In this document: in pieces, positions 1,630 to 15,131 of the stretch
Layout: every line of letters begins with the position of its first letter
Position numbering within the stretch: the stretch's first letter is position 1
Origin: Buxus sempervirens
Taxonomy: Eukaryota; Streptophyta; Magnoliopsida; Buxales; Buxaceae
Direction of reading: 5' to 3'
Assembly: GCA_947561395.2 (NCBI GenBank)
Contig: OX387184.1
Span: 60,013,197 to 60,077,196, forward strand
Length of the DNA: 64,000 nucleotides
The notes under the pieces: generated by a model
Database searches by the model: none
What the model was told of the DNA's origin: nothing
Seen by the model: the letters and a program-made list of their open reading frames with translations, nothing else
Translations under genes and position numbers: made by a program

Positions 1630-4177
1630 CTTTCTTTTTTTTTCTTTTTTTGATGAATAATAAGAGATTTCGTTAAAAATAGCAGAAAAAAGTAGTAAAA
1701 GCATACAATAGCCCATGAGACAATGGACTAGAGAAACCAAAAAGATAGACCTACAAAAAAAACCCCATTCCTATAAACCCATGCCCATGCTTCGCTGCCT
1801 TACTTGAATGCAAGAGCCCTCCAATGAATTGAAATTTCGGCTGCCGACATTCCTTGACTTACCTTCCGCACACTAACCCAAGATGAGGCTAGGACAATTA
1901 CCTTGGGAGGAGCATAGATATCCTAAAAAATCCTCTTGTTCCTAGCCTTCCACACAGACCACAATATGGAAAAGAAGACTGCCTTATACATTTCCCGCCC
2001 AAACTTAGTGAGAGATGGAAAGCGCCACTGGTAGGCTAATTGACAAACAGCACCTGGTACTACCCAACTCACTCCTGTCATTATGAGAAAAGACCTCCAC
2101 ACATGAGAAGCAAACTCATAATGAATGAAAAGATGATCAACCAACTCCCCATCCTTTAGGCATAAAGAACACACCTGAGGTGAGAAAGCTATAAACTTCC
2201 TTCTTCTCTGAAGATTGTCAAGAGTATTAACCTTTTTTAAAAGCACCAACCATACAAAAGCTAACACCCTTTTTGTGTTTTGGGGGGGGGGGGGGGGGGG
2301 GGCGCAGGAGATTTCCACAATGATTTGGGAGAAAAAGGGGATGATGAATGGGGTTTGAGGACAAAAGGTGCCCCAAAAAAGATTTAGAGCTTAAGGAATG
2401 TGACTTATCCAACGGCCAAAACTTCACATCCGGGATTGAAGGAACAATCACTGCATCTTTTAGCAATTCAAACAATCTACCCATCTCCTCAAGTTTTCCC
2501 CTACATAAATCCCTATTGAAATTAAGAGACCACTCTAAATCCAAGTCAGACCAGGATAGGACATCACATACAAAGGCATGCTTGTTTGAGCAAATTTGAA
2601 TAAGGGAAAGAAACCGCTAGACAAGAGTGACCCCACCACATATCCAGCCAAAAACAAAGATAATCCCCTTTTCACAATCTAGTAGAAACAATAGGAAAGA
2701 AGAACGATGCATAAGTCCAGATTGCCTTCTAGGGACTAAGAGTAGAACACCGAAGGGCATTTCGACTCTCTTCACCCATCCTGTGCAACCCAAACTTACT
2801 GGTTATCACCTTTAACCATAACACATCCTTTTCGACCATGAATCTCCATACCCACTTCCCAATGTAGAGCAATATTCCAAAATCTGATGTGGCCCAGGCT
2901 CAATCCACCCTCTTCCTTTTCTTTACACACCATGTCCCATCTTGCTAAGTGGTCCTTCTTCCTACTACCTCCTCCTTCCCACAAAAAATCCCTCAGCATT
3001 TTCTCCAAAACCTTTTACTACATAACTGGAAGCTTTAAAGAGGGAAAGATAGTACATCGGAAGATTTGCTAGGGCTAATTTGATTAAAGTGATTCGGCCC
3101 CCCAAAGATAAATAATTCTTTTCCCACGCCACTAATCTTTTCCCCACTCTCTCTAGGACCGGATCCCAAAATTGCTTCTTTAAAGGGCGAATTCCTAGGG
3201 GAAGGCCTAGATATTTAAGGGGGAAAGCTAAGGGTGTACACCCTAAAAGGCTCCTACCCTCTTCAAGAATGTTCTCTTCCATGTGGATGCCTGTAATTGA
3301 ACTCTTATTTAAGTTAATCTTCAACCCAGATACAATCTCAAAGCACCTCAAGATGTCCCTAGCCCATCTCACATAATCCAAAGAACCACCTAGAAAAAGA
3401 ATAGTATCATCTGCAAACTGCAAATGGGAGACCTCCACCTTATCCTTTCCCACCACAAAACCCTGAATTTTGCTCCTATCAATTGCCATCGCAAAAAACC
3501 GACTCAAGACATCACTCACAAGAGAAAAAAGGAGGGGAGAAGGAGGATCTCCTTGTCTGATGCCCCGTGAGGTACTAATATACCCATTCACACCCCCATT
3601 TATTAGAAAAGATAGGGTCACATTCTCGATACAACCCTGGATCCACTTACGCAATACCTCCCCAAAACCTTTTCATATGAGGACCTCATCAAGGAAGGAC
3701 CATTCAACTCTATCATAGGCTTTTTCCAAGTCGATCTTCACCACAAATTCGGCTCTCCCCTTCCTTTGGTATTCCTCCACACATTCATTAGAAATCAAAC
3801 AACCATCTAGGATTTGCCTACCAGGAATGAAAGCGCATTGATTAGGGGAAACAATCAGATCTATCACTTCCCTTAACCTTGAAGATAACGCTTTGGCCAC
3901 TATCTTATAAAGGCTAGTGGTAAGACTTATAGGGCGAAAATCCTTTATATCCTTGGCCCCTTGTTTCTTGGGAATGAGAGATAGGAATGTCGCATTTTTT
4001 ACTTTATTGATGACCCCATATCTATGGAATTCCTTGAACACCTCAAATAGATCCTCCTTCTCCGTATCCCAACACTCCTGAAAAAAGCCTATGGTGAATC
4101 CATCTGGACCCGGGGCCTTTTCCGAGTTTAACACCCATACTGCCTTTTTAACCTCCTCCAACATGAAAGGCCTTTTC
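1630..4177 (-). mobile_element. 5'-truncated L1 LINE (RT and zf-RVT part of ORF2)
   Basis: This non-LTR retrotransposon lies on the minus strand. It is flanked by an identical 15-bp target-site duplication (aagaacttatgcatc at 1615-1629 and 4178-4192), and its A-rich tail appears as T-rich sequence at 1630-1655. From its 5' end it encodes the reverse-transcriptase start with KAPGPDGF (about 4100), FIPGRQILDG and KAYDRVEWSFLDE (about 3680-3840), then the catalytic box FADDTILF (about 3400), and finally the RT-associated zinc-binding region with CSLCLKDGELVDHLF (about 2120-2200). Only the C-terminal two thirds of ORF2 are present; the endonuclease and ORF1 are missing, as expected for 5' truncation. 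Frames are broken in several places and a 21-base G run sits at 2282-2302, so it is dead. Confidence 0.9.
2282..2302. repeat. G21 homopolymer inside L1
   Basis: Twenty-one consecutive G on the plus strand, C on the L1 coding strand, between the RT and zf-RVT parts. The sequence on each side still resembles L1 ORF2 in shifted frames. It may be genuine slippage expansion or an assembly or sequencing artefact. Confidence 0.8.
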
Positions 4178-4652
4178 AAGAACTTATGCATCTTCAACCT
4201 AGAAGGTTACCACACCTCACCAAAAACTCTTCATGCCCTCTTTGTGATAGAAAAGGGACCTTCATACTTCCAAACAACCCAATTCTCTTTCTAGATTGAG
4301 CTGAGTCAGTTTTACAAATAAAAACCTAATACTTGACATTTCACATATTTTGAGTTGCATAGCTCGTACATTTAAAGGCCTCATCAAGATTTTCCAAAAA
4401 CATAACAACCTTCTCCTCCCTTTTCTTAAAACATTAATAAGCTGCATGACTATTAACGTCTACTCTTTCTATACTAAGTGAACTCACTCATTTACAATTT
4501 GTAGATAATTGAGTCCCATCAAACAACTTGATCTAATCCCTTTGATTGAAAAGTACAAAGTGCCTCAAATATAGCTCTATTAGAACAGTGATGTATCTGC
4601 AAGAAAAGTGGACCATGAGAACCAAGGAGTCTTGGTTACTGATGATAGTGAG

Positions 4653-6716: not shown

Positions 6717-6724
6717 ATCACAAC
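6717..6724. repeat. Target-site duplication, left copy (ATCACAAC)
   Basis: Eight bases identical to 11420-11427; eight base pairs is the standard hAT duplication length. Removing the element and one copy restores an uninterrupted frame in the host hAT exon. Confidence 0.95.
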
Positions 6725-6732
6725 CAAGGTAC

Positions 6733-6845
6733 TAAGTATCGTGCCGCATCGCTCGATACGCACGATACTCTTGTATGTATCGCAATACAGCTCGTATCAA
6801 GCTGTATCGCGACTGTATCGACTGTATCCAGTCGATACAGTCCCT
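6733..6845. promoter_or_regulatory. Left subterminal GTATCG motif cluster of the young hAT
   Basis: About ten copies of GTATCG, its reverse complement CGATAC or close variants (GTATCA, GTATCC) occur within 113 bp, in both orientations. Clustered short subterminal motifs are the known binding sites of hAT transposases such as Ac. Their role here is inferred from position and density. Confidence 0.7.
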
Positions 6846-7497
6846 AAAAATAGCCTATCACGTTCAAAAACGTGAAAACAGCCCTCTTACAAGAACCCAA
6901 ATAGTTCCTTCGCTTGAAATCCTTTCAAAAATTTGTCAAACCCCCTTGATTATAACCCATTTTCGACCTAATTGGTGGTGTAAATTATTCAAAACAAGTT
7001 TGAACAACGAATCAAACAACTAAAGTAAGATTCGTCAACATTTTCGAGAGGTATTTTAGGTTTTCGATTTTTTTAATTCTAAATCTTTGTATTTTCATAT
7101 TTAAGCATTATTTAACAATCTTTTGTATGAATCTATGGATTTCACTATAGATTGAAATTGTGTTTTTAGGTAAAAAAATCGAATTTTTTTGCAATATGGA
7201 AAAAAGTGACGAAAATTCTAATTTTTTTTAAAAAAAATTATACAAACCTTAACAGTTTGTGTTCAATTTTTTATATGAGATGCACGTGAGGTTGATCTAT
7301 CCTCCCTATGATTCTTGCATTTTTTTCATGAATAAAATTATTTTTAATAATTGTTTTTGTTGAATATTAATTAAAAATATAGGAAAATAATATTATATTT
7401 TTATCAAATTTGATATTTTGGTTCCACTTTTTTTCCTAAGAGAGGTTGGTGATGCCATTTGCATGTTTCTTGATATAGTTTCAATTATTTTGTAGAT

Positions 7498-10400
7498 ATG
7501 GCACCTAAAACGCAACAACGGAAAGGGCTAGACGTCGGTTGGCAACACGGAGAGATGATTGGAAGCAATAGATTGCATACAAGATGCAATTATTGTCAGA
7601 AGGAGCTTAGAGGGGGTGGAGTTACTAGATTGAAACATCATCTTGCTGGTGGGAATCCGAATGTAGAGAAGTGCTACTGTTGTCCTGTAGAAGTTTCTAG
7701 GGCTATGAGTGAGCATCTTAGAGCTGCAAGGAAGGAGAAGGAGGAAATTACTATAGAGAGAGATGCTTTAAGAGATAGGTTAGCTGGGAGGGCAGCACGG
7801 ATGGATAGGGGAAAGGGCATCTGTGTTGATGATGATTTTTCTGATCGAGAAGATGTTATGATACGAGAGGAAAGAGAAGATGTTGATGAAGCAATGAGAA
7901 GATCAATTGCAGACATTCATTACAGAGAGCAAGGAGGGAGAAGGAGTATAGATTCTGTAGATGTTGGTTGCACACCAGGTAGAGCTAGTTTTGGGGGGCG
8001 TCGTCATAGAGCTGGTTTGATGCGCAGTACAAGTGTCAGAGAAGCTTTTGACAAAATGGTTGGAAGGCCAAAGCAGCCAAGAAAGAAGTCAAGGGGATCT
8101 ACTATAGAGGAGATGGATCCTTCAATTTATCGAAATAGAGATGCGAAGCAAATTAGGTTGAAGGATTCTTGGCATCCAGGAAAATGGGCAAATAATGTAA
8201 AGCAAGCCATTGGTAGGTGGTTTATTTACAGCAATATCGCACCAAATGCTGCAAATAACCCCTACTATCAGACGATGATTGATGAGATCGCTAGGGCTGG
8301 ACCAGGGATTAAAGGTCCCACTCCATATGAGATCACAGGCCCTATACTGGATGCAAAAGTGGATGAGATACAGACTTACATAAAGTCATTTATGAAGAAA
8401 TGGGATACTTATGGTGTAACTTTGACGTGTGATGGTTGGACTGGGCCTACCAAGCTATCGATCATTAACTTTTTGGTTTACTATGATGGAAGAGCAATTT
8501 TTCACAAGTCAGTTAATGCTTCTGACAAAATCAAGGACCATCAGTATATGTTCAAATTGATGGATGATGTTGTAGAGGAGATTGGTGAGAAATACATTGT
8601 ACAGATTGTTACTGACAACCAATCTTCATACAAGAAAACAGGGGAGTTGTTGATGGAGAAAAGGAAACATCTGTACTGGACCCCGTGTGTGGCACATTGT
8701 ATTGATCTTATGCTCCATGATTTTGGTCAGAAGAAGAAGGTGAAAGGTGTGATTGAAAAAGCAAGGAGATTGACAAACTTTATTTACAACCACAACTGGG
8801 TACTTAGCCTAATGAGAGAACACACCAAAGGGGAGCTGCTTAGGCCTGGTCTTACAAGATTTGCCACAAATTTCATTGCAATTAATAGTATTATTATGTC
8901 TGAAAAGGCTGGATTGAGAAAAATGTTTTTATCAGATAAGTGGCAAGAATGTCGACAAAGACGGGATGTTTTTGGAAAAAAGGTTGAGGATATTGTTCTA
9001 AATAACACTTTTTGGAAGAATGGACGATTGGTAGCTGAAATACATGATCCTCTTGTGAAAGTGTTGAGAGTTATGGATGGAGAAAAGCAAGCCACAATAG
9101 GTTATCTATATGAAGCTATTAGAAGGTCTAAGCTTGCTATTGCCGAAGCTGCTCCTGATGATCAAGAGATGTATTGTGCAATTATTGATAAAAGATGTAA
9201 GAAGCAGCTTATTCAAGACATCCACCGTGCAGGTAATATACGTAAATTTGTTTCCAATTGTCTACTTCCTATCTTGAATAAGTTACTAATTTTTTTTATT
9301 GAATTAGCATTTTACCTCCACCCGGCGTATCATTACACTGAAAATCTTGGGGATGATACGGAATTAGTGAGTTCATTCAGAAGGGTGATGTTGAGATTGG
9401 AAAGGGATCCAGAGCGTGCCAGTAAAGCACTTAGTGAGGTGATTTAGGAATTAGGAATTTTAAGAATTATTTACTTATTATTTTTTGTAATGGACAATCA
9501 CTAACAGTGTTTTTTTTTTAATAAGAGAAAACATTTAGAGATGCTATGTATGGTTTTGGAGATCCAGCCGCTATTAGGGCACGGACTACATGTGAACCAG
9601 GTAATAGAAATTAAACAATGAAAATACTTATTTTCATTGTTCAAGTAAATTGTATAATTTGCATGTGGGAGGGATTCATTTTTTTTTTTTTGGTTATTTC
9701 TGCAGCTGAGTGGTGGTTCTTGTATGGAACCGATGCATCAAATTTGAGAAGAATTGCACTAAGACTTTTATCACAGACGGCTTCATCCAGTGGATGTGAA
9801 AGAAACTGGAGCACTTTTTCTCTCATCCACACTAAAGTGCGGAACCGTTTGAGTTATGCAAAGTTGGAGATGCTGGTTTTTGTGCACTACAACATGAGGC
9901 TAAAGATACGACATCTTCAAAAGCAAAGCAGAACGGGGGAGGGCGAGTTTAGGCCGATTGACCTTGCACACATATTTGATGAAGATGCAGATGAGCTACT
10001 CACGGAGTGGTTGGATAATCCAGAGGAGGTAGTGCTCGATGAATTAGATGATGAGGGGAGGCCTACAAGACCAAGTAGCTATGTGGCAAACTTGGTCAAC
10101 AGATTTAGTGATGATGAAGGAGGAGGAAATACTAGAGCTGCAGGGAGTAGTCGAGCTGGGGTGAGCAGCAATAATACTAGAGTGGGTCGTGATCCTCCTG
10201 ATGATGGTGACGATGATGGAGATGATGGCGATGAAAGTGACGACGATGATGATGTTGGACGTCGTGAGAGTCCTTCATCACCACCAAGTCCACCACAGGG
10301 TGGTACTGGTAGTGGCTATGGTGGTGGTATTCACATTACAGAGGAGGCTGAGGAGCAACAGCAGCAGTATGATCATGGTAGTGGCCATAGGGGACATCCT

Positions 10401-10952
10401 CCTTCCATTCATAATCTTTACCATCGGAAACGACGTGGAGGCCATCCAGCACCAGGATCAGAACATGATGATGTGATGATGCCACGTGGACATAATTTAG
10501 ATGCCATTACACAAGGAATAGACTTGATTAATGTGGGTCTTTTAGGCATATTTGGAGGTGGACCAAATTCAGGGTCGAGGTCGTCGTCTTTTGGGCGTAC
10601 CCAGGAGAGGTCATCTTCTTCGTATGATTATGGTTATGGCCAGGGAGGATCATCTTATCAGTCTAGTCATGGATATGGTTATGAGCATACAGGCTATGGG
10701 TATGGCCAGGAGGGATCATCATCTTATGGGCAGCAGATGGATCAGTATGGTCACTATGGTGGTAATGTTGGGGGTTACTATAGGCCTACTTCAGCACAGT
10801 ATCAGCAATTTAGAAGGGAGTATGAAGCATGGTATCGAAATTATATGGATTGGGCTTCTTATTGTCAGCATGTTCAACGCACGCATAACGTGCCATTGGC
10901 CGATTATGAAGAAGCTGAAGATGAACCTGCACGTCACTCCTTCTGGCATTGA
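7498..10952 (+). CDS. hAT-family transposase, four exons, 1061 aa, no visible break
   Basis: Proposed exons are 7498-9232, 9308-9438, 9528-9600 and 9706-10952. All introns are GT-AG (75, 89 and 105 bp), and the total of 3186 nt is exactly 1062 codons. The start follows an acceptor-like ttttgtag, which suggests a 5' UTR intron. A BED-type zinc finger lies at residues 30-59 (C30, C33, H48, C59). The DUF659/RNase H-like core starts near residue 225, with catalytic candidates D312 in CDGWTG and D373 in VTDN. Joining exons 1 and 2 gives AAFYLHPAYHY, a typical hAT motif. The C-terminal dimerisation region contains EWWFLYGT and CERNWSTF, where E678 is the expected third catalytic residue. After it comes an unusually long tail: an acidic run near residue 814, then a Tyr/Gly/Ser/Gln-rich stretch at about 950-1015. 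Function is inferred: cut-and-paste transposition in the nucleus. Whether it is active is unknown. Confidence 0.93.
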
Positions 10953-11310
10953 AGAAGATATTAGGGACCATGAAGTAGCTTTATATGTTTGGATTTTGAA
11001 ACCACCTATTTTTATGTAATGGATTATGGAGAATGTTGTGTTATGAATCATGATAGTAATTTATTGTTAATTTTGATGTTTTAAGTGTTAATAACTTAGT
11101 GTGTTACTTATATTACTTGAATGAATTTTCTAACCTTATTTATTGGTTTATTTAACCTTTTATAGCTTTTATTATAATTTTCATTCATTTTCGCGTGTGC
11201 CTATTTGCTTCTAAAATGCATAGATATTATTTGTATAGTCCTATAATGCTAGGAACATGTTTATTTAACATATTTTTAACTTATCTTTCTATCTAGATAG
11301 GTTTTAATCT

Positions 11311-11410
11311 ATGTATCCACCCGTATCCACCATTTTAGACCGTATCCGTGCGTATCCTCGATACGTTTCCATTTTTGGATCGTCCGATACAGCACGTCAA
11401 TACAATACTT
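11311..11410. promoter_or_regulatory. Right subterminal GTATCC/CGATAC motif cluster of the young hAT
   Basis: Repeated GTATCC, CGATACG and CCGATAC motifs mirror the left cluster, consistent with transposase-binding subterminal repeats. Confidence 0.65.
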
Positions 11411-11419
11411 TGAACCATG

Positions 11420-11427
11420 ATCACAAC
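11420..11427. repeat. Target-site duplication, right copy (ATCACAAC)
   Basis: Exact match to 6717-6724, directly abutting the right terminal inverted repeat of the nested hAT. Confidence 0.95.
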
Positions 11428-14400
11428 TTAAACAACATTTGGCACACGGCTACAAGAACATGGCCAACTATCCTCAAGTTCCTCCAGAGCTTAAGAGGCA
11501 GATAAGAGAACACTTACAATCATAGAGTACATCTAGGGAGGAGAGGAGGCATGCACAGGAGGAGATTAGACGTAGATTTACAGAGCCTATCCGACCCCCT
11601 ACGGCTGAGGATGATGATGATGATATAGTGTACCCTGACAACATAGTGACAGAGCCAAAAAGGGCAGCATTCAGAGCCTCAGTGGGAGCATCTTTGCAGT
11701 GTGAGTTTGAGAGGAGAGAGGTTGGGAGGTATGGATTTTACAGATGTGGTACCTGTAGAGGAGATGCAATTGATGTTGATGATCCTAGGCGTGGGGCTGG
11801 GCCTGGGCTCACTCATTCTTAGAGCACCAGGATGCCCGAACTTATGGAGCCTAGTATGTTCCATTCATCTGGTGCCAGGCAGAAGTGATTGAGAGATATA
11901 TGGGGCAAGGGTAATGTCAGGCAGAGAATGGGGAAATTCATATCAAAATTCTTTATCTTCAATCACATTCCAGCAAATGCAACAGCGAGTCCAGACTTCA
12001 AGAATATGGTTAATGTTATCCAGGAGTCTAGTCAGAGGATCTTACCTCCTACGCCTCGAAAGATTATAGGTACGTACTTGGACGAGAAAGAGGCAGAGAT
12101 GAGAGTTTATTACATCCTTATGACCCCACTGGAACCAATTTGGAGTTAGTAATGGATGGACAGGTCCTACTAAACTGTCCATCATCAATTTCATGGTTAT
12201 TGCAGAGGTAAGGCAGTATTTTTTAGAACTGTTGACGCATTAGACAAGATCAACGATGCACCCTATATTGCAGGCCAATTAAGGAGCGTGATAGAAGAGG
12301 TTGGCATAGAACACATGGTTCAGATTGTGACAGATAATTGCAGTGCATTCAAGAAAGTCGGCCAGACATTGGAGCAGTAGTATAACTTATATTGGGCGCC
12401 GTGTGCAGCACACTGCATCGACTTGATGCTAAAGGCGATTGGCCAGAGGAGTCATATGCTTACCACATTGAGGGATGCACGATCACTCACTACATTTGTG
12501 TACAACCACAACTATGTACTTGCGAAGATGAGAGAGAAATGTGGTGGGGACATTGTTCGGCCGGGCATTACCAGATTCGGTACGAACTACATTGCATTAG
12601 ATAGTACTTTAAGGCACAGACAAGGATTGAGATCACTCTTCACCAATGAGGATTGAGTGAGCTGTACTCAGAGTCGCACGGATATAGGGAGAGTAGAGGA
12701 TATTGTTTTATCCAGCACTTTTTGGGAGCATGTGCGAGAGTTGATTGATGTACTGGAACCTATATACCGTGTACTGAGGATAGCTGGCACAGATGCCCAT
12801 CCCACGATAGGATCTATATATCAATGTATGGCTGTGATGAAATCTCAGATTAAGGCCGCATCACCTTCATCATACAAGTGGCAGTATACAAGATTAGATG
12901 GTTCAAGACGCTAGCTCATCCTCTGCATTCAGCTAGTATAATTATAATTCTATTTGAATTTTTCATGTTCAATAATGTTTATAATTATATTTTAATTGTA
13001 CTAATGCTTTTTTTTGTAATCGTCAATGTAGCATATTATTTGAATCCCAAGTACCATTATAAGGATAACCTTGGCACCTACACAGACCTATGCGCTTCAA
13101 TCCACCAAGTCTTCATGAAGTTGAACCCTCATTCAGATGCAGTTGACAATTTTGGAAACAAGATAGGGGATTGTAAATTGTAAAAATGGTAGTGAATCTA
13201 TTACTTCACTTATGCATATTAGTTCTTACTTCTTAATAGTTTTATTAAATACTAAACTCTTTAACCCTTTCAAATTCCACTACCAGCTGATACTATTTAG
13301 AGATGCGATGGGCTCGTTCAAGTCGACCACGACGATTGCATCGAGGACGACAATAATGCCATGTAAGTAAAACTTATTTGTAAATATTAATTATTAAATG
13401 ATTTTTCTATATTCTAATTTCTAAATAAATGTTAATATTTTCTTTTGTAAATCCAGGTGAATGGTGGGCGATGTATGGAATAGATGCCCCTACACTGAGG
13501 AAACTAGCATGCCAAGTATTGGCTCAGACAACATCTTCCCTGCTTGTGAGCTCAATTGGAGCATGTTTGCACTCATACACACAAAGCAGAGGAACCGGCT
13601 AGCTTATCAGAGATTGCAAAAGTTAGTCTTCTGCCATTATAACATGAGGCTGAGGACGAAACAATTAGAGATAAAGCAGCGCACCACGACGGTGAAGGAT
13701 CCTTTAGACGTGTTATTCAGTAATGAAGTTAATGAGAAGGATCTATTTGCAGAGTGGGTTAGATGTGTTGAGATGGATGAGCCTGATGGTCGTCCTAGCC
13801 CAGTCATTGCGCATGCTGCAGCAGAAATGGGCATCAATGTGGATGCAGCTATGGATGAGGACAAGGGGGGAGGGCAGCGAAGATTCATTAGATAGATCCG
13901 TGAGAGTTGTTCCTCCCTCCGTTGCTGCAACGACATCAACCCCAGTCCCAGTCCCAGTCCCAACCTGTGGATATGTTGAATCATCATCAGAGGAGGAAGA
14001 GAAGACAAATGAGGAGGATGAGTCCGAATCATCAAATGATAATGACGGCAATGGTGGTACTAGTGGTACTCATGGTGGTGTTGGCACCAGTGGCTCGAGG
14101 TTGAGCCCTTTTACTGAAGAGGCGGCTTTCCATCATACCACACAGGACACTGACCACGGGTTCAGAGGTCATGGTAAAAATGAGGCACATTCCTATCAGA
14201 GGAGGAAAGGCAAGGAAAGACAGCATACAAGGATGCACGATGACTCGTCCTCCATGGCCCAAAGTTTCGGATCTTTAAATGTTGGAGCATCATTGAGTTC
14301 TTATGGAGAGCAGTATCCACCACAGCTGAGCCAGGGACACTATCCATTCTACTATCCTCAACAGCTTGGGCCAGCAGATTCATCGGATAGTAGTAGTTAC

Positions 14401-15131
14401 GGTACTTCATATGGATATCCTGGAGCACACATGCAGACATCTGATCCATTTGGGAACTTTCCAGTGAACCCATATCCGTACAGTTATTATGACATGCCTA
14501 TACCTACTGGAGTTATAGCCCCTCCATACGAGCATCCTGGTTATCTTACGTTGTCTCCTTCATCACCACCACAGCCAGAGCCAGATCATTGCTACCACTA
14601 TTCTGATTTCCCTCCAGTTGGTATCATGACATAGGAGTATGAGTAGCATGTCCGTTCATATCAGAGAGAGTATAGATTTTGGATGGGATGGAAGCATTAC
14701 TGCCACTTTATTGGCGAGAAAGCAGGGTTTGCGCCTCGCCATTCATTTTAGTACCGATTTAGCAGTATGATTGTATGTTTTTTACTCTTTGAAATACTGT
14801 TTCAGTTTAATTTAAAATTTGGATCCTATTTGTCATTTTGATTTATGCACAGCCCACAACATCACCCTGATCATTACATTTACATGTTACATTGCATTTG
14901 CATGATTTTTTGAAGTATATAACTGCTACTTGTAGTAATTTTAATACAATTATACATGCAAATGCAATTATTTTACATATTATTATTGTAAATCATTGAT
15001 TTTAGGACTAAACAAGGGAAAAAAAATTTCACTCGATTCACCGGAAAATCAATTTTCCAGTGAATTGGTGACATTTCGGCAACACGGTGCCCTAGGCGAC
15101 ACGCCCAGCGGCACCAAAACTCAAAACCTTG

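Follow-up and report, generated by a model that had tools for sequence, protein, structure and literature searches.

A long modular tail, probably under selection, follows the dimerisation region of BED-DUF659-hAT transposases in three families of Buxus sempervirens

The stretch of Buxus sempervirens DNA analysed here (64,000 nucleotides, called the window) contains a transposase gene whose protein continues for 344 residues (aa 718–1061, 9918–10949) downstream of the hAT dimerisation region, the end of which was set at aa 717 by our own cut. We consider it very probable that this tail is a translated and selected accessory region of a BED-DUF659-hAT transposase, shared by three families whose cores are 45–67% identical. 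The tail probably helps the enzyme work. The mechanism that we prefer, tentatively, is that it lets transposase dimers associate with one another on the repeat arrays at the ends of the element.

The young element and the anatomy of its tail

The element carrying the gene (family A, Table 1) has the features of the hAT superfamily. An 8-bp target-site duplication, ATCACAAC, lies on both sides, and the terminal inverted repeats (CAAGGTACTAAGTATCG / CATGGTTCAAAGTATTG) are short and imperfect. The four exons join in frame across GT-AG introns to give 1061 aa, and the last of them (9706–10952) is open up to a TGA. The same TGA is found in all 30 family A copies examined, each of the six splice dinucleotides is intact in 27–30 of them, and the right element end, with up to three mismatches allowed, is present in every copy except L011 (29/30). 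In the window protein, Pfam places DUF659 (PF04937) at aa 274–424 with 173.4 bits against a cut-off of 34.7, as in the DUF659 branch, and Dimer_Tnp_hAT (PF05699) at aa 642–710 with 41.6 bits against 21.4, as in hAT transposases. A zf-BED match (PF02892) at aa 26–49 reaches 20.4 bits, just under the cut-off of 20.6. By its predicted domains, then, the gene encodes a 1061-aa transposase of the BED-DUF659-hAT type, with the BED match marginal. By eye, we take the Asp of TCDGW near 8431, the Asp of VTDN near 8614 and the Glu of CERNWS at 9798 to be candidates for the DDE residues.

The young element interrupts an older related hAT element near the start of the latter, in a region that looks BED-like by eye (6717–6724 / 11420–11427). 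No convincing inverted repeat was found at the ends of the older element. Elsewhere in the window, at 3673–4206 on the minus strand, there is an open stretch whose translation we take to resemble a fragment of a LINE-type reverse transcriptase.

Table 1. Positions in the window of the two hAT elements and of the parts of the family A gene and its tail.
Feature	Position	Strand	Remarks
Left target-site duplication ATCACAAC	6717..6724	.	Identical 8 bp at 11420-11427
Young hAT element, family A, 4695 bp	6725..11419	+	Ends CAAGGTACTAAGTATCG and (reverse complement) CATGGTTCAAAGTATTG
Left subterminal array: 9 GTATC/GATAC in 150 bp	6725..6874	.	Shuffle mean 0.86; 0/500 reach 9
Exon 1: BED finger, DUF659	7498..9232	+	
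Exon 2	9308..9438	+	Splice sites compared across copies
Exon 3	9528..9600	+	Splice sites compared across copies
Exon 4, first part: hAT dimerisation region with CERNWS motif, to aa 717	9706..9917	+	Pfam; exon 4 profile matches Hermes
Tail module 1: linker, aa 718-811	9918..10199	+	
Tail module 2: acidic run, aa 812-829	10200..10253	+	
Tail module 3: middle stretch, aa 830-929	10254..10553	+	No clear evidence of constraint of its own
Basic patch HRKRRGG inside module 3	10422..10442	+	In alignments, same position as QRRKGKER in family C
Tail module 4: Tyr/Gly/Ser/Gln-rich stretch, aa 930-1005	10554..10781	+	
Tail module 5: conserved C-terminal module, ends RHSFWH, aa 1006-1061	10782..10949	+	
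Right subterminal array: 6 GTATC/GATAC in 130 bp	11290..11419	.	Shuffle mean 0.59; 0/500 reach 6
Right target-site duplication ATCACAAC	11420..11427	.	8 bp, matches left copy
Older hAT element: tail remnant, one open frame	13708..14634	+	
Older hAT element: C-terminal module remnant to RHSF and stop	14634..14751	+	In-frame stops

Judged from its sequence, the tail is modular, beyond mere low complexity. The composition is most extreme in the Tyr-rich stretch, where a span of 76 residues starting at aa 930 reaches the highest content of Y, G, S, Q, N and P (79%). The initial annotation had claimed more than 300 residues after the dimerisation region and a prion-like composition. The length is confirmed, and the composition is prion-like in the loose sense of a low-complexity Tyr/Gly/Ser/Gln-rich stretch. 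What that picture overlooked is the basic patch HRKRRGG, with a putative role in nuclear localisation, and the conserved C-terminal module. The latter is a pattern of about 55 residues, running Y, R, Y, W, Y, then RHSF and the stop; across nine aligned end modules V2, Y13, R18, Y20, W30 and Y33 are invariant (window-piece numbering).

The tail is probably disordered. FoldIndex is below 0 in 249 of the 294 tail windows of family A, but it does not single out the tail, because values under 0 also cover most of the N-terminal 250 residues of the window protein and values above 0 occur around aa 876–951. Tandem Repeats Finder, run on 9706–10955, gave weak arrays only (6 rows, scores 32–44), and a simple DNA repeat expansion was therefore rejected. 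The C-terminal module was divided into 8 pieces for a simple test of amphipathic helices; none of the pieces reached significance, and this candidate was dropped as well.

No Pfam domain was found in the tail of the window protein. Among the 18 members of alignment A2, Pfam reported the dimer domain (5 members) beside weak matches in 1 or 2 members to Ribosomal_60s, DNA_pol_phi and DUF1281 (E 0.005–0.06), and no NCBIfam domain was found in the 21 members of alignment A1. The profile search of structure chains with exon 4 gave no solved-structure relative of the tail. The dimer part alone matches Hermes, a hAT transposase (PDB 6dww, 4d1q, 2bw3, 8edg), over 59 positions with E about 6e-5, and 11 other rows of the 15 have chance-like E values of 0.02 to 0.93. 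The Hermes chain ends 12 residues past the matched stretch (542–600 of 612), whereas the family A protein has 344 past its dimer region. Another hAT family of the same genome, labelled Ac-type by eye, has a hAT dimerisation domain above the Pfam cut-off and, in the same frame, a stop 16 residues past it, with a further exon possible; this figure comes from the near-identical L001, L002, L004 and L006, with L003, L005, L007 and L008 left out.

The tail in three families of the genome

The comparison between families covers loci of the same 676-Mb genome. Family A is the young element, family C is related to the older interrupted element, and family D is a third tailed family. Core identity is 45% between A and C, 47% between A and D and 67% between C and D. 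In the alignments the tails are collinear in all three, with linker, acidic run, basic patch, Tyr/Gly/Ser-rich stretch and end module in the same order. A one-off fusion is rejected because the three families share the tail, and the proposal that it is a lineage trait holds. The older element does have the comparable tail that had been attributed to it, in broken form.

Each module was compared by global alignment with 500 shuffles per pair. The C-terminal module is the best-conserved part of the tail between A and the other two families, aligning at 39% in A–C (z 7.6), 23% in A–D (z 4.4) and 43% in C–D (z 14.8), and in none of these pairs did any of the 500 shuffles reach its score. Between C and D, z is 22.9 for the linker, 14.3 for the middle stretch and 3.7 for the Tyr-rich stretch. 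In A–C and A–D these three align weakly (z 0.4 to 2.3), with 8 to 178 of the 500 shuffles reaching the score. The acidic run aligns between families no better than its composition would (z −0.2 to 1.2). The Tyr-rich stretch keeps its place and its composition, with 15, 16 and 18% Tyr in A, C and D, but its sequence is not clearly kept in A–C and A–D; the initial annotation had asked whether composition is conserved among homologues, and here it is. From these module alignments, the dimer region and the end module appear as two sequence anchors around a stretch that keeps its composition.

Related tails are numerous in the genome. The match counts are lower bounds, the best candidates having been scored. 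A search with the last exon gave at least 112 matches, of which 29 span the whole 414 aa and 10 of those are stop-free. The tail of the older element gave at least 155. The last 148 aa of family D gave at least 150, including 22 that are stop-free in open frames of at least 440 aa. The 62-aa end piece of the window protein also gave at least 150, and since 15 of these are under 50% identity, further divergent carriers of the end module probably exist. The tail frame is uninterrupted in the family C loci L073 and L074. Many copies of family D are 99–100% identical over 148 aa, for which reason this family seems to have been recently active too; one copy, L072, has two stops in the tail. Outside the genome, one pattern from the Tyr-rich stretch found no relatives in viral contigs, and there was no match in plasmids.

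In a small unrooted tree built from six cores, A, C and D are separated from three other DUF659 loci (L069, L070 and L071) with support 0.98. No long tail was found in these three loci, as read from their last open frames, later exons being possible. From the 70-residue dimer stretch to the stop there are 64 residues in L070 and 25 in L071, and in L069 the stop falls inside that stretch. L069 (1819–2121) has another sequence in place of the CERNWS motif in its dimer region, as in a domesticated or decayed copy. In L070, a linker-like DPI...SDWVEE stretch can be seen by eye after the dimer region; since this locus has no long tail, the beginning of the linker may be older than the tail.

Selection and recent movement

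Copies of family A were chosen by similarity to the window tail, and 26 of them were used for comparison with the core, four of the 30 (L030, L031, L035 and L038) having been dropped with their upstream part unaligned. A change seen once was called private, and a change in two or more copies shared. Tail omega is 0.91 (0.68–1.22) for private changes and 0.38 (0.26–0.60) for shared ones; for core plus dimer region the values are 0.76 and 0.31. We infer that shared changes mostly arose in lineages still jumping, so this contrast is what a functioning part of a protein would show. Since the shared changes are constrained like those of the core and the private ones look neutral, the most likely reading is that the tail is translated and kept. 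The exon model first proposed, which reaches through the tail, is thereby strengthened: with codon-level constraint in its frame and with splice sites and stop kept, the tail is very probably translated.

The contrast recurs in all 30 copies (private 0.99, shared 0.48), in the 9 stop-free copies (0.60 and 0.12) and after removal of C>T and G>A changes (1.04 and 0.39 over the whole tail). It is gone in the strictest setting, in which C>T and G>A are left out and shared means three or more copies (private 0.79, shared 0.55, 0.22–1.94). By module, with wide intervals, shared omega in family A is 0.29 for the linker, 0.17 for the acidic run and 0.72 (0.31–1.88) for the middle stretch. For the Tyr-rich stretch it is 0.25 (0.08–0.61) in 26 copies and 0.36 (0.18–0.65) in 30, and for the end module, with few changes, it is 0.64 (0.19–3.00). 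The acidic run says little by this contrast, because its private omega is also low (0.25).

The old B/C set has 31 rows, L042 of the 32 having been filtered out. Here whole-tail omega is 0.93 for private and 0.67 (0.56–0.82) for shared changes, with shared values of 0.29 for the dimer region, 0.69 for the Tyr-rich stretch and 0.38 (0.24–0.62) for the end module. For the end module, then, constraint is clear in the B/C set, and in family A its interval is the wide one given above.

Tailed copies of family A are also very similar to one another. L013, L016 and L017 are 0.16–0.20% apart over the codons compared, and together with L015 and L019 the range is 0.16–0.57%. That such near-identical copies sit at different places with different flanks implies that tailed elements jumped recently. 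L022 and L037 have a common flank, and for that reason they are probably one insertion that was duplicated. Around 3120 of L029, the bases beyond the right element end resemble, by eye, the 3' part of the element itself, so that this row may be one copy nested in another. In G000, related tail copies occur as pairs in opposite orientation roughly 2–23 kb apart (C4:53562298/53567986, C8:13249794/13272291, C19:16851149/16853088, C3:18040873/18043699), an arrangement that would fit duplication of hAT insertions or fragments into inverted pairs.

What the tail may do

Both ends of the young element carry GTATC/GATAC arrays (Table 1), and the remaining 4.4 kb contain 8 such sites. The arrays are possibly binding sites of the transposase, with the GTATC repeat as a putative BED target. 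Like the family A element, in which the BED finger is just under the Pfam cut-off, Hermes has BED fingers and subterminal repeats (PMC10368747). In the available text of that study, octamer formation by Hermes uses a swapped insertion-domain helix, the left end is bound by several BED domains, and a Hermes mutant that fails to octamerise is hyperactive in vitro but inactive in cells.

The preferred mechanism, which we hold tentatively, is that the tail is a self-association region giving avidity for the arrays. While the dimerisation region would build the core dimer, loose contacts between dimers would come from the flexible stretch of acidic and Tyr-rich sequence, with the C-terminal module as its anchor, so that many BED fingers would be offered together to the GTATC/GATAC arrays at both ends. 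Avidity from the tail would stand in for what the octameric ring supplies in Hermes. We favour self-association because of the collinear tails, the aligned end module, the kept Tyr composition, the omega contrast, the recent jumping, the arrays at the ends and the Hermes data on octamers and BED domains. Against it, the hAT insertion domain may already form higher-order rings here, the test for amphipathic helices was null, FoldIndex is not specific to the tail, and the omega interval of the end module is wide in family A. A bolder version, in which the sticky Tyr-rich tail with its own C-terminal module replaced or supplemented a Hermes-type ring and forms a small condensate on the subterminal arrays, with composition and not sequence being selected, we think rather unlikely.

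The nearest rival to self-association is that the C-terminal module, perhaps with the acidic run, docks on a nuclear or chromatin protein of the host that assists excision or the choice of target, with the Tyr-rich stretch mainly a flexible spacer. We rate this as somewhat unlikely. The C-terminal module does have the clearest sequence conservation of the tail between A and C or D and a low shared omega in the B/C set, and the RHSF end could be a short docking motif. However, the constraint on the Tyr-rich stretch in family A goes beyond the need of a pure spacer.

Third, the tail might form inactive assemblies at high enzyme level, and the resulting overproduction inhibition would spare the host; we consider this unlikely. 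In its favour, the Ac transposase forms nuclear aggregates. Against it, selection for self-restraint in a mobile element is usually weak, and the Ac transposase is not known to have such a tail. Overproduction inhibition, which this reading invokes, is the subject of a review (PMC3878927), and inhibition at high expression is mentioned for Ac transposase in yeast in the available text of PMC10288884, so a tail of this kind would not be needed for it.

Passive baggage, that is, a neutral and harmless low-complexity extension that is read through, is largely refuted and very improbable: the middle stretch, the B/C whole-tail value and the strictest setting, with its interval past 1, would suit it, but the shared omega of the tail in family A is like that of the core, and the tail is kept across A, C and D with one stop codon in all 30 copies. 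That splicing removes the tail, or that the protein ends before it, is hardly credible, given the codon-level constraint in the tail frame, the kept splice sites and stop, and the open tail frames of family C.

Plant databases contain BED-hAT proteins with glycine- or serine-rich ends. In the titles and abstract starts of open PubMed Central we found no prior description of such a tail, which is weak evidence of novelty because most papers in subscription journals lie outside that literature. The class I plant proteins of PMC9296551, which account for 390 of its 750 genes, have named domains (Zf-BED, DUF, Dimer_Tnp_hAT) in the same order as here; the available text makes no mention of a tail, and disordered, glycine and tyrosine have 0 occurrences in its main text. 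An accessory disordered part likewise affects the activity of a cut-and-paste transposase in piggyBac, where, according to the available text of PMC9499001, replacements that are scrambled yet disordered give no rescue. That region differs in being N-terminal, about 100 aa long and from another superfamily. The Gag protein of Ty1 likewise has a prion-like stretch, which is needed for mobility, but Ty1 is a retrotransposon, the domain acts in particle assembly, and it can be exchanged for some other prion-like domains (PMC10372613, available text).

The same study invites others to look for prion-like domains elsewhere among mobile elements. Should the tail serve multimerisation or condensate formation, it would be a case of a DNA transposase with a prion-like stretch selected for mobility. 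The tails of families A, C and D form a natural series, in elements that jumped recently, in which composition is kept and sequence has diverged, and what selection sees in a disordered region is thus directly testable here.
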